The notes under the pieces are model-generated. The model did not search any database, had not been told where the DNA came from, and saw only the letters and a list, made by a program, of their open reading frames with translations. The position numbers and the translations under genes were made by a program. Below, piece by piece: positions 25,889 through 29,938 of a DNA stretch of 64,000 nt (position 1 is its first letter; every line of letters starts with the position of its first letter). The stretch comes from Marinitoga hydrogenitolerans DSM 16785 (GTDB taxonomy: Bacteria > Thermotogota > Thermotogae > Petrotogales > Petrotogaceae), in NCBI RefSeq assembly GCF_900129175.1, contig NZ_FQUI01000003.1, positions 1 through 64,000 on the forward strand, in the 5' to 3' direction.

Positions 25889-27187
25889 ATGGAATGGGTA
25901 TATATTAAAGATATGAAAAAATATATAGGCCAGAAAGTAGAGTTTAAAGGGTGGTTATGGAACAAAAGAGCAAGTGGAAAAATAGCCTTTTTACAGTTAA
26001 GGGATGGTACGGGGTTTGTTCAAGGTGTTGTTGAAAAAAACACTTTAGGAGAAGAAAAATATGCTCAGGTGAAAAAATTAAAAATGGAAAGTTCTTTAAT
26101 AGTTAAAGGAGTTGTTGTAGAAGATCAAAGATCGCCTGTTGGTTTTGAGTTACATATAGAAGATGTTGAGATAGTACATAATCCAACAGAAGATTATCCA
26201 ATTTCAAAAAAAGAGCATGGTATTGATTTTTTAATGGAACATAGACATTTGTGGTTAAGGTCAAGAAGACAGTTTCATATATTAAAAATCAGGCATGAAA
26301 TAATTAAAGCCATAAGAGAATTTTATAATAATAATGGGTTTGTTTTAATAGATACACCAATATTTACAGGTTCAATTGGCGAGAGTGCAGGTAATACATT
26401 TGAAATAGAATATTTTGATTATGGAAAGGTTTATTTAGCTCAAACGGGTCAATTATATCTAGAAGCAGCAGCAATGGCTTTGGGAAAGGTATATAACTTA
26501 GGGCCTACATTTAGAGCTGAAAAGTCAAAAACAAGAAGACATTTAATAGAATTTTGGATGAATGAAGCAGAGGTAGCATATTACACGCACGAAGATAATA
26601 TGAAATTACAGGAAAATTTGGTGTCTTACGTTGTAAAAAAAGTTTTAGAAAATGCATCGGAAAATTTAAAAGCTCTTGATAGAGATATTTCAAAATTAGA
26701 AAAAATAGAAGCACCATTCCCAAGAATTACATATACAGATGCTATAAAATTATTGAATAAAAAAGGTTCGGATATAAGATGGGGTGAAGACTTAGGAGCG
26801 GATGATGAAACGTTGATTTCTGAAGAATTTGATAGACCTGTTATTATTGAAAAGTATCCAAAATCAGTAAAAGCATTTTATATGCAGCCAGATCCTGAAA
26901 ATCCTGATGTTGTTTTATGTGATGATATGATTGCTCCAGAAGGTTATGGTGAAATTATTGGAGCATCAGAAAGAATCTGGCAAGAAGAAGTGCTTTTAGA
27001 AAGATTAAAAGAAAATAATTTGCCAATTGAAGAATATCAATGGTATCTTGATTTAAGAAAATATGGATCAGTCCCTCATAGTGGTTTTGGTTTAGGAATT
27101 GAAAGAACAGTTGCTTGGATTTGTGGTTTAAAGCATATAAGGGAAGCAATACCTTTTGCAAGGACATTATATAGAGTTTATCCTTAA
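25889..27187 (+). CDS. asnS: Asparaginyl-tRNA synthetase
   Basis: A class IIb aminoacyl-tRNA synthetase of 432 residues. The N-terminal OB fold ([30 protein letters not shown]) binds the anticodon. Motif 2 ([24 protein letters not shown]) and motif 3 ([16 protein letters not shown]) form the catalytic site. The compact size and absence of the bacterial AspRS insertion favour AsnRS over AspRS. The ATG at 25889 follows GGGAGG; an in-frame TTG at 25874 would place the ribosome site inside the gene. It is followed by a terminator. Confidence 0.93.
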
Positions 27188-27189
27188 GA

Positions 27190-27212
27190 AAAGAGCTGAT
27201 TTTCAGCTCTTT
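27190..27212 (+). terminator. Terminator after asnS
   Basis: aaagagctga/tcagctcttt stem (27190-27199 with 27203-27212), 3-nt loop, followed by a T-rich tract. Confidence 0.88.
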
Positions 27213-27252
27213 TTCATTTACATTTTATTTACTTTAATAATCTTTTGTTTAC

Positions 27253-27282
27253 TTGACATCTAGATGATTTATATGTTAGAAT
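27253..27282 (+). promoter_or_regulatory. Promoter of the methionine leader and metQNI operon
   Basis: TTGACA (27253-27258), 18 bp, TAGAAT (27277-27282), 45 bp ahead of the leader start codon. Confidence 0.85.
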
Positions 27283-27327
27283 ACGAAAAAATATAAATAG
27301 AATGAAAAAATATATTCGGGTGATATT

Positions 27328-27435
27328 ATGAGATTAAGTAATAATTTAAAAAGATTATATAAAGTACATATGATGATGATGTGGCATACCGGTCTTCTTT
27401 TTAAGAAGATTAATGCCACTCTGTTTTTGTGCTGA
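27328..27435 (+). CDS. Leader peptide with four consecutive Met codons (transcription attenuation)
   Basis: A 35-codon open frame: ATG at 27328, TGA at 27433, with CGGGTG 6 nt upstream. Codons 15-18 are ATG ATG ATG ATG (27370-27381), followed by Trp. The stop codon is 15 nt ahead of a strong terminator, and metQ follows. Charged tRNA-Met limitation would stall a ribosome on the Met run. The frame is short, lies in a leader and has no recognisable fold, so its role is inferred to be regulatory. Confidence 0.88.
   Translation: MRLSNNLKRLYKVHMMMMWHTGLLFKKINATLFLC
27381..27419 (+). promoter_or_regulatory. Leader hairpin and antiterminator segment (Met leader)
   Basis: GTGGCAT (27381-27387) pairs perfectly with ATGCCAC (27413-27419). 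The 5' arm starts at the last base of the fourth Met codon. Inside lie CATACCGGTCTTC (27385-27397) and a small hairpin tcttctt/aagaaga (27393-27399 with 27403-27409). The segment can make 13 pairs with the terminator 5' arm (27450-27463), with one G-U and one bulged T. Stalling on the Met run would block the hairpin base and favour this antiterminator. Confidence 0.8.
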
Positions 27436-27450
27436 GTGGAATTAATTGAG

Positions 27451-27486
27451 AAGGCCGGTTATGAAAATAACCGGCCTTATTTTTTT
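27451..27486 (+). terminator. Attenuator terminator upstream of metQNI
   Basis: aaggccggttat/ataaccggcctt stem (27451-27462 with 27467-27478), GAAA loop, then T-rich sequence to 27486. It is placed between the leader stop codon and the metQ start at 27511. Confidence 0.95.
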
Positions 27487-27510
27487 ATAAAAATTCTTGG
27501 AGGTGATATT

Positions 27511-28305
27511 ATGAAAAAGTTTTTATTTGTGGTTTTATTGTTAATTTTAGTTATTTTTATTGGTTGTACAAAAGAAGAAAAGGTATTGAAAATTGGTGCA
27601 ACAGCTGTTCCACACGCAGAAATCCTTGAGTTTATTAAAGATGACTTTGAAAAAGAAAGCGGATATAAATTAGAGATTGTAGTTTTTAATGATTATGTTC
27701 AGCCGAATATAGCATTAGAAGAAGAACAGATCGATGCAAATTATTTTCAACATGTACCTTATTTAGAGGAGTTTTCAAAAAGCAAAGGATATAAAGATTT
27801 AATATCAATTGCAAAAATCCATGTTGAACCTATGGGGTTTTATTCAAAAAAATCAATAAAAGAATTTAAATCAGGCGATAAAGTGGTAATTCCGAATGAT
27901 GCAACAAATGAAGGAAGGGCATTGTTGTTATTACAGGAGAATGGATTAATAAAATTAAAGGATACGAATTCTTTAAAAGTTACTATTAATGATATTGAAG
28001 AAAATAAATATAATTTGGATTTCGTTGAATTAGATGCAGCATATTTGCCAAGGACATATAAAGAAGATACCTCTGTAATTGGTGCGGTAATAAATACAAA
28101 TTATGCAATAGAAAATGGATTAAACCCACTAAAAGATGCAATATTTATAGAAAATGCTAATTCACCATATGCAAATATTATAGCAGTAAAAGAAAAAAAT
28201 AAAGATAATAAAGAAATTCAACTTTTAATTAAATTATTACAATCAAAAAAAGTTAAGGATTTTATTTTAGAAAAATATAAAGGTGCTGTTGTACCAACCT
28301 TTTAA
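27511..28305 (+). CDS. metQ: Methionine ABC transporter binding lipoprotein MetQ
   Basis: A 264-residue lipoprotein of the NlpA/MetQ family. The signal peptide ends in IFIGC with Cys19 for lipid attachment. The mature part has LKIGATAVPHAEILEF, then QHVPYLEEFSKSKGY and the substrate-site stretch VIPNDATNEGRALLLLQENGLI typical of methionine-binding proteins. It presents methionine to MetN and MetI. The ATG at 27511 follows GGAGGTG; a start at 27436 in frame lies within the terminator. The Met-run leader directly upstream supports methionine as substrate. Confidence 0.95.
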   Translation: MKKFLFVVLLLILVIFIGCTKEEKVLKIGATAVPHAEILEFIKDDFEKESGYKLEIVVFNDYVQPNIALEEEQIDANYFQHVPYLEEFSKSKGYKDLISIAKIHVEPMGFYSKKSIKEFKSGDKVVIPNDATNEGRALLLLQENGLIKLKDTNSLKVTINDIEENKYNLDFVELDAAYLPRTYKEDTSVIGAVINTNYAIENGLNPLKDAIFIENANSPYANIIAVKEKNKDNKEIQLLIKLLQSKKVKDFILEKYKGAVVPTF

Positions 28306-28319
28306 GGAGAGTGAATGAA

Positions 28320-29294
28320 TTGTTAGAAGTGAAAAATTTAAATCTTATATATGATGGAGAAAATCATGTATTAAAGAATATAACTTTTAAATTAGAAAAA
28401 GGAGAAATATTAGGAATTATAGGACTTTCCGGTGCCGGAAAGTCTTCTCTATTAAGAGCTTTGAATTTACTTGAAAGACCTCATGGCGAAATATTATTTG
28501 ATAATATTAATTTAACCCAATTATCAAGAAAAGATTTAAGGAAATTTAGAAAAAAAATAGGAGTGGCTTTTCAACATTACAATTTATTATCAAGAAAAAC
28601 TGTTTTTGAAAATATTTCATTGCCTTTAATCTTAAATAAAGAAAATGAAATAGAAGAAAAAGTATCTAATATTATAAAAAAAGTTGGTCTTGAACATAGG
28701 AAAAACGCATTTCCGGCACATTTGTCAGGTGGCGAAAAACAGAGAGTTTCAATTGCAAGGGCAATTGTTTCTAATCCTGATATTTTATTTTTGGATGAAC
28801 CAACATCTGCGCTTGATCCAAAAACTACAGAAAAAATTCTTGAATTAATATTAAAAATTAATCAAGATATGAAAATTTCAACAATTATAGTAACACATGA
28901 AATGGATGTAATAAAGAGAATTTGTGATAAAATTTTGTATTTAAAAAATGGAAGTGTTCATTATTTTGGTGAAGTATATAGATTTTTTTCTGAATTTGAA
29001 AAGGAATTAAATGAAGAGTTTTATAAAGATATTAATTATGATTATAGCAAGTTGAAATTTAAAAATGGAGAAATAATAAAGGTTATTTTTTATGGAGAAA
29101 ATGTTGGAAAACCAATTTTAAACGAAATTTCTAAAAAATATGATATTACTTTCAATATTTTATATGGTAAAATAGAAGATTTTAAAAATGCACCATTTGG
29201 AAAATTAATTATAGAAATAGAAGGAGAAAAAACAAATGAATTTATAAATGAATTAAAAAAACATGTTTATGCTTTGGAGGTGTTAATGCTTTGA
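28320..29294 (+). CDS. metN: Methionine ABC transporter ATPase MetN
   Basis: A 324-residue ATPase of the methionine uptake system. Walker A is GLSGAGKSS (35-43), the signature is LSGGEKQR, Walker B is ILFLDEPTSALD. Residues 250-324 form the C-terminal NIL regulatory domain, which in MetN binds methionine and inhibits transport. The likely start is TTG at 28320, nine bases after AAGGAGA. A GTG at 28311 would lie too close to that site. The end overlaps metI by 4 bp. Confidence 0.95.
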   Translation: MLEVKNLNLIYDGENHVLKNITFKLEKGEILGIIGLSGAGKSSLLRALNLLERPHGEILFDNINLTQLSRKDLRKFRKKIGVAFQHYNLLSRKTVFENISLPLILNKENEIEEKVSNIIKKVGLEHRKNAFPAHLSGGEKQRVSIARAIVSNPDILFLDEPTSALDPKTTEKILELILKINQDMKISTIIVTHEMDVIKRICDKILYLKNGSVHYFGEVYRFFSEFEKELNEEFYKDINYDYSKLKFKNGEIIKVIFYGENVGKPILNEISKKYDITFNILYGKIEDFKNAPFGKLIIEIEGEKTNEFINELKKHVYALEVLML

Positions 29295-29938
29295 ACATTA
29301 TAAATGAATTAGTTAAGGCAACATTAGAAACATTATATATGACATTTTTTTCGGGTTTTTTAAGCGTTATTTTTGGAATACCTTTAGGAATAATATTATA
29401 CTTAACATCTATCAGCCAACTTAAAATATCAAAGATTATATATAGAATTTTTGATGTTGTTATTAATATATTTCGATCTATACCCTTTATTATATTAATT
29501 GTATTAGTTATACCTTTAACAAAGTTAATAGCAGGAACAATAATAGGTCCTAAATCAGCAATAGTATCTTTAACGATTGCCGCAATACCTTTTATGGCAA
29601 GATTAAGTGAAAGTACTTTTAATTCATTATCGAAAGAAATGATTGATACTGCACATACATTAGGAATGAATAATTTTGAATTTATAGTGAAGATTCTTAT
29701 CCCTGAAATGTTACCAAAAATTGTTTCTAATATAACTTTGTTACTAATAAACCTTGTAAATTATACAGCTATAGCAGGTGCGGTTGGAGCAGGAGGATTA
29801 GGTGCAATGGCTATAAATTATGGATATCAAAGATTTAGATTTGATATTTTAATGTATGATTTAATTATTTTAATTTTAATTACGCAAGTAATACAGTTTG
29901 TAGGAATGAAGATAGAAAATATAATAGATATAAAATAA
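29291..29938 (+). CDS. metI: Methionine ABC transporter permease MetI
   Basis: A 215-residue inner-membrane permease with five membrane segments and the EAA-like loop MIDTAHTLGMNNFEFIVKILIPEMLPK. It completes MetNIQ. It starts at TTG (29291), four bases before the end of metN, with GGAGGTG 8 nt upstream. An ATG at 29285 stops after two codons. The operon ends at an imperfect A/T-rich inverted repeat near 29946-29975. Confidence 0.94.
   Translation: MNIINELVKATLETLYMTFFSGFLSVIFGIPLGIILYLTSISQLKISKIIYRIFDVVINIFRSIPFIILIVLVIPLTKLIAGTIIGPKSAIVSLTIAAIPFMARLSESTFNSLSKEMIDTAHTLGMNNFEFIVKILIPEMLPKIVSNITLLLINLVNYTAIAGAVGAGGLGAMAINYGYQRFRFDILMYDLIILILITQVIQFVGMKIENIIDIK

Follow-up and report, generated by a model that had tools for sequence, protein, structure and literature searches.

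A putative methionine-codon attenuator ahead of metQNI in Marinitoga hydrogenitolerans and similar leaders in Thermotogota and Synergistota

The metQNI locus and its leader

The leader described here lies within the window (the whole 64,000-nucleotide stretch of DNA that was analysed), between asnS and three genes whose best family matches are MetQ, MetN and MetI. The asnS gene is closed by its own terminator, and the leader therefore constitutes a separate transcription unit, with a candidate promoter and Shine-Dalgarno sequence of its own (Table 1). A first-pass annotation of this DNA had described a 35-codon leader with four consecutive ATG codons at codons 15-18, a 12-bp terminator 15 nt past the leader stop and methionine uptake genes directly downstream, and all of these were recovered at the same places. 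The 13 pairs that it had proposed between a segment inside the leader ORF and the 5' arm of the terminator also form, as CATACCGGTCTTC/GAAGGCCGGTTATG with one bulged U. An element absent from that description is a protector hairpin; the in-leader segment, termed region 2, overlaps both its 5' arm and the hairpin interior.

Table 1. Predicted features of the asnS-metQNI region, in window coordinates.
Feature	Position	Strand	Basis or remark
asnS (upstream gene)	25889-27187		AsnS by NCBIfam
asnS terminator	27188-27214	+	terminator scan
Candidate leader promoter, sigma-70-type, TTGACA-N18-TAGAAT	27253-27282	+	11/12 match, TG before -10
Leader Shine-Dalgarno, GGGTGAT	27318-27324	+	sequence
Leader ORF, 35 codons, MRLSNNLKRLYKVHMMMMWHTGLLFKKINATLFLC and stop	27328-27435	+	ORF list; stop 27433-27435
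Putative regulatory codons, four consecutive ATG (codons 15-18)	27370-27381	+	sequence
Protector hairpin 5' arm, GTGGCAT	27381-27387	+	overlaps last Met codon
Protector hairpin 3' arm, ATGCCAC	27413-27419	+	pairs with GTGGCAT
Region 2, putative antiterminator 5' strand, CATACCGGTCTTC	27385-27397	+	complementary to terminator 5' arm
Intrinsic terminator, 12-bp stem, AAGGCCGGTTAT/GAAA/ATAACCGGCCTT	27451-27478	+	terminator scan
Region 3, terminator 5' arm	27451-27462	+	
Terminator T-rich tract	27477-27486	+	sequence
metQ Shine-Dalgarno, GGAGGTGAT	27499-27507		
metQ, methionine-binding lipoprotein	27511-28305	+	NCBIfam NF008285, E 1.5e-64, below curated cut-off; ATG at 27511
metN, ABC ATPase	28311-29294	+	TIGR02314, E 1.2e-81, below curated cut-off
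metI, ABC permease	29291-29938	+	NF008049, E 3.8e-56, below curated cut-off

The predicted folding energies are -21.5 kcal/mol for the duplex of region 2 with the terminator 5' arm (13 pairs, one bulge), -18.5 kcal/mol for the protector (folded as 27379-27421) and -19.6 kcal/mol for the terminator. As a whole, the 201-nt leader region folds 7 SD below its dinucleotide shuffles (z -7), and when the region was shuffled 3000 times, ATGATGATGATG arose twice. On both strands of the window, the leader is the sole short ORF with even MM that is followed by a terminator. A genome-wide scan for ATGATGATGTG alone, and not for the shorter ATGATGATG, detected four sites, and none of the other three is a short MMM leader followed by a terminator.

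Rfam searches of the leader region gave no match at gathering scores, and only weak matches far under the cut-offs at a relaxed E-value (up to 10), among which there was no SAM riboswitch and no T-box. The SAM-binding fold that the first-pass annotation had named as evidence against its own reading was thus found at neither threshold. Two candidate RNAs were considered individually and rejected: the T-box covariance model has no match in the window leader at the gathering score or at E up to 10, and the aptamer covariance model of the SAM-I riboswitch (RF00162) has none either.

Met leaders in Thermotogota and Synergistota

Seven genomes of the window's genus were sampled; four of them have metQ (G000, G002, G003 and G004), all four with the leader, and no SAM-I riboswitch was detected in any of the seven. 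The leader-ORF frame and the protector 3' arm are kept in G002, G003 and G004, and the length of the ORF differs between sister species by one whole Met codon only (three against four). In G002, a TTGACA/TAAAAT pair resembling the window promoter precedes the leader, and AGAGGTGAT is present at the position equivalent to the leader Shine-Dalgarno sequence. The leader is intact in G003, but metQ (C9:29688-30478) is distributed over two frames and contains internal stops, which reflects either decay of the gene or a fault in the assembly.

The search of Thermotogota genomes for short Met-run frames upstream of metQ or metN that had been proposed was run, and the result was strongly positive. Among 27 readable metQ upstream regions from this phylum (other metQ genomes being fragmentary or cut by contig ends), 18 combine a Met-run leader ORF with a terminator, and the other nine have a SAM-I riboswitch (G008, G009, G012, G014, G015 and G017-G020); the presence of SAM-I in these nine indicates that the leader stands in for a known regulator of the methionine pathway. 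The 18 leader-bearing genomes belong to seven genera, and their homologous leaders carry three to four Met codons, or MCM, MVM or MNMIM. The sequences ahead of metQ include NMMMPWCNRFFSHG (G010), HMCMPWQPT (G013 and G016), VMMMYRNALV (G030), NMMMCRPLS (G033), VMNMIMCTSAP (G041) and, in eight genomes of genus g11, MMMYGNALVSSGA or a near copy, with MVMCRE leaders at the paralogous metQ copies of that genus. The Met run and the geometry are retained while the RNA and peptide sequences diverge: between genera, the Met codons, the frame, the stop position and the terminator are kept, and the structured sequence is not. In another Thermotogota family (G038 and G044), a leader such as MVGNFGTYHFEKNVMAMIMCIYAPGGSPGF, ending in a stop and followed by a terminator, brings a Met run of the MAMIMC (L264, G038) or VMIMC (L265, G044) type ahead of a gene whose only solved relative is PDB 1j6r, deposited as a methionine synthase. 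On the basis of that match, the product is probably a MetH-activation-domain protein.

A set of 80 metQ loci of mixed phyla contained no convincing Met leader except for one on a Synergistales contig, where NTMMMCMYGGPPGVIGAA, its stop and a terminator precede metN-metI-metQ. A survey of Synergistota was made by seeking metQ in 188 genomes and taking 40 upstream regions, and a Met leader was detected in 20 of the 40. A covariance model built from these leaders has matches in 124 of the 188 genomes; the model consists mostly of sequence, misses the window leader and also matches leaders other than Met leaders, so that the figure gauges spread within Synergistota only. The device was found before metNIQ, metQ, metX and metY. 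The metX leader contains MMMCAMMMC and the metY leader SMMMCMDCGSSPGAIGV, and a shared 3' module accompanies the Met leaders ahead of these two genes (L267, L268, L269, L271-L273 and L277).

Leaders with other residue runs are present in the same phylum. Met/Thr-, Thr-, Leu- and Ile/Val-rich runs with a GSPPG-type 3' end were observed in L280, L283, L285, L286, L276 and L282. The target genes assigned from L280, L283, L285 and L286 comprise an aspartokinase gene with the leader FAMMMMTSGDPP, homoserine dehydrogenase genes with a Thr- or Thr/Met-rich run and an isopropylmalate-synthase-like (leuA-like) gene with a Leu-rich run. The residue run therefore varies from pathway to pathway on a constant 3' RNA module, as codon sensing predicts.

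In six of the 20 Synergistota regions scanned (L208, L210, L213, L217, L220 and L224), the Met leader is directly preceded by a SAM-I riboswitch with the same orientation. The L208 tandem precedes metY-metQ and the others precede metQ. In L213 (2391-2655, oriented), a terminator-like hairpin with a T tract lies between the aptamer and the leader start, and riboswitch and leader each have a terminator of their own. With two terminators in series, SAM and charged Met-tRNA would both have to be low for expression, and the arrangement is an apparent two-input gate, as judged from its layout. A full-text literature search found no paper on a SAM riboswitch in tandem with a leader peptide. Considering both phyla together, it is fairly probable that, in Thermotogota and Synergistota, leader attenuators sensing Met-tRNA are a main means of controlling the uptake and synthesis of methionine, that they interchange with SAM-I riboswitches at the same operon and that certain Synergistota tandems, with a terminator for each element, allow metQ expression only when both signals are low.

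Two features of the leader sequences may be mentioned here. Cysteine codons stand beside the Met run (MCM, MMMC, MVMC) in G013, G041, G033, the g11 paralogs and most Synergistota, which may reflect either a constraint of the protector stem (ATGTGC) or joint sensing of Met and Cys. In L208, L210, L212, L214, L220 and L224, region 2 holds TCTCCTCC, which resembles an anti-Shine-Dalgarno sequence and might also pair with a ribosome-binding site.

Matched pairing, proposed mechanism and alternatives

Of 67 upstream regions, 33 have MMM within a short ORF ahead of a terminator on the sense strand and none has it on the antisense strand, and runs of any other residue occur in at most five of the same regions; the 67 include related sequences, so the 33 cases are not independent events. 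The spacing from stop to terminator is 12-25 nt in all 41 compiled leaders, which were chosen for having a terminator. Compensatory changes in the terminator are evident across 14 Thermotogota leaders, and the terminator was the only structure recovered by RNAalifold on a MAFFT alignment. For this reason, a permutation of matched against mismatched partners was used instead, with 22 representatives of lineages that differ in both peptide and RNA. The mean pairing energy of region 2 is -17.3 kcal/mol with the arm of its own terminator, as compared to -12.3 kcal/mol with the arms of other representatives (P<1e-4; Thermotogota P=6e-4, Synergistota P<1e-4), a contrast that is if anything weakened by the relatedness of some representatives. 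Taken individually, the region 2 duplex beats dinucleotide shuffles (P<0.05) in 18 of the 41 leaders, and it is thus the matched/mismatched test that carries weight. The elements, their geometry, their conservation and the matching of region 2 to its terminator can be read directly from these sequences.

With an ORF bearing a Shine-Dalgarno sequence and a stop, a run of cognate codons, a terminator and an antiterminator, the window leader has structural features expected of an attenuator. Given also the recurrence of Met-run leaders with terminators ahead of metQ and the lack of a SAM-binding fold in the searches above, the attenuator reading of the first-pass annotation is supported, and we consider the window leader to be a classical ribosome-mediated transcription attenuator that senses elongator Met-tRNA (probability about 0.88). 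Transcription of the leader by RNA polymerase would proceed together with translation of the 35-codon ORF by a ribosome. A shortage of elongator Met-tRNA would stall this ribosome at the Met codons, with its footprint over the protector 5' arm; region 2, left largely free, would capture the terminator 5' arm ahead of synthesis of the 3' arm, and RNA polymerase would read on into metQNI. With ample Met-tRNA, the ribosome would reach the stop, region 2 would be masked or trapped in the protector behind it, and the 12-bp terminator would form and end transcription. An untranslated leader should also terminate, as the protector would form. We infer translation of the leader, stalling, the switch in termination and the identity of tRNA as the sensed species from this architecture, and the response to starvation through elongator tRNA is a prediction of the same kind. 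Since initiation on the leader itself requires Met-tRNA, severe starvation could blunt the response.

Equilibrium folding of the window leader agrees with part of this scheme. With a ribosome masking the leader at the Met run, the mean antiterminator probability is 0.72, and it is 0.2-0.3 with the ribosome one to eight codons further on, since region 2 itself is then under the ribosome; 31 of the 41 leaders show a clear masked-ribosome contrast. After the ribosome has passed, the probability rises again, to 0.81 with the ribosome at the stop codon, and it is 0.91 without a ribosome. Equilibrium folding therefore cannot explain termination in methionine-rich cells, and termination under replete conditions would need kinetic folding of the protector or a ribosome close behind the polymerase.

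Several other explanations have to be weighed. The leader peptide itself, and not the supply of tRNA at the codons, might arrest the ribosome when methionine or SAM is present in the exit tunnel, the RNA switch then operating as described but with an opposite or different logic. The Met run is indeed the most conserved part of the peptide, and in Synergistota and several Thermotogota it is frequently followed by Cys (MMMC, MCM); however, the residues N-terminal to the run vary by lineage without a common motif, and the Synergistota leaders that combine the 3' module with Leu, Thr/Met or Ile/Val runs show the pattern of codon sensing, which makes peptide arrest improbable. An undescribed riboswitch or T-box-like RNA, to which a ligand or tRNA would bind directly and for which the ORF would be incidental, would account for the strong structure of the region (z -7), and SAM-I occupies the equivalent place in related genera. 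This is nevertheless very unlikely given the lack of an Rfam match, the preservation of Met codons, frame, stop position and terminator between genera where the structured sequence is not preserved, and a change in length within the genus that amounts to one whole codon.

The adjacency of Met and Cys in many leaders could also point to peptide chemistry that senses some other signal, such as a thiophilic metal or methionine oxidation. The window leader has no Cys near its Met run, the targets are mostly genes of methionine uptake or biosynthesis, and the Thr/Met and Leu leaders sit on matching pathways, so that little credence can be given to such a sensor. Finally, an ordinary intergenic terminator might have acquired an accidental run of ATG, as the genome is AT-rich and ATG triplets occur elsewhere in it; this is scarcely credible against the recurrence ahead of metQ in two phyla (33 of 67 regions, none antisense) and the matched-pairing permutation, and an origin by chance is refuted by conservation.

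Relation to known systems

SAM riboswitches, T-boxes or repressors are the usual explanation for methionine regulation in bacteria. The window leader would work like the trp, his and leu leaders, and it shares with trpL, hisL, thrL, leuL, ilv and pheL a short translated ORF (translation being predicted here) that contains a run of the pathway residue, an antiterminator and terminator together with a predicted protector, and structural genes directly downstream. It differs from them in that the codon sensed would be AUG, which is also the start codon, in that region 2 lies inside the leader ORF right after the regulatory codons, and in that the target is an uptake operon and the host a member of the Thermotogota. 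A published survey covers Rfam attenuators for His, Leu, Thr and Trp together with those for Ile/Val and Phe, names none for Met and suggests that attenuators may have arisen in gammaproteobacteria (PMC3766115).

Such an arrangement has rarely been described, and the sole published Met leader that was found is a weak prediction in S. lividans. There, metL (MSTTSDRTPATEATTTPGARCMCRRMCAF) is likewise proposed as a Met leader peptide ahead of metNIQ, but it lies on a leaderless transcript, it has no consecutive Met codons and its authors found no typical terminator (PMC8079986). The uORFC-8-2 of cysS similarly has codons for a sulfur amino acid in an upstream ORF, with starvation leading to transcriptional read-through, and differs in responding to cysteine, in its occurrence in Rhodobacterales and in its tRNA-synthetase target (PMC8632094). 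The SAM-I (S-box) riboswitch is also cis-acting ahead of metQ in sister genera, whereas its aptamer senses SAM without an ORF and it is absent from the window's genus. Met-specific T-boxes regulate methionine genes by the state of tRNA-Met, as the window leader would, and so does the SAM-I element of X. campestris, which is reported to sense uncharged initiator tRNA (PMC7270179); in both, the RNA itself senses the tRNA and no translating ribosome takes part.

Targeted searches of the open-access literature, in which most subscription papers are absent, brought up no Met leader described for either Thermotogota or Synergistota. The proposed mechanism is therefore a known one, and its amino-acid specificity and hosts are essentially undescribed. 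If the reading from sequence is correct, classical attenuation would be placed in the thermophilic Thermotogota, where the literature searched describes none. It would also give AUG a double role, as the codon that starts the leader and as the codon that is sensed: elongator Met-tRNA would have to fall far enough to stall a ribosome, with sufficient initiator Met-tRNA left to begin translation of the leader. The range of leaders available in nature (those with Met only, Met and Cys, Met and Thr, and Met with a SAM riboswitch in series) allows this AUG question to be tested.

A leader of a different composition was observed at another Thermotogota locus (L266, G063, approximately 1450-1560), where MKANLSNVNYGYYYFRTRL, which ends in a stop and contains a Tyr/Phe run, is accompanied by a terminator. 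A gene resembling that of 3-dehydroquinate synthase (by Pfam) lies slightly downstream, which suggests an aromatic leader attenuator.
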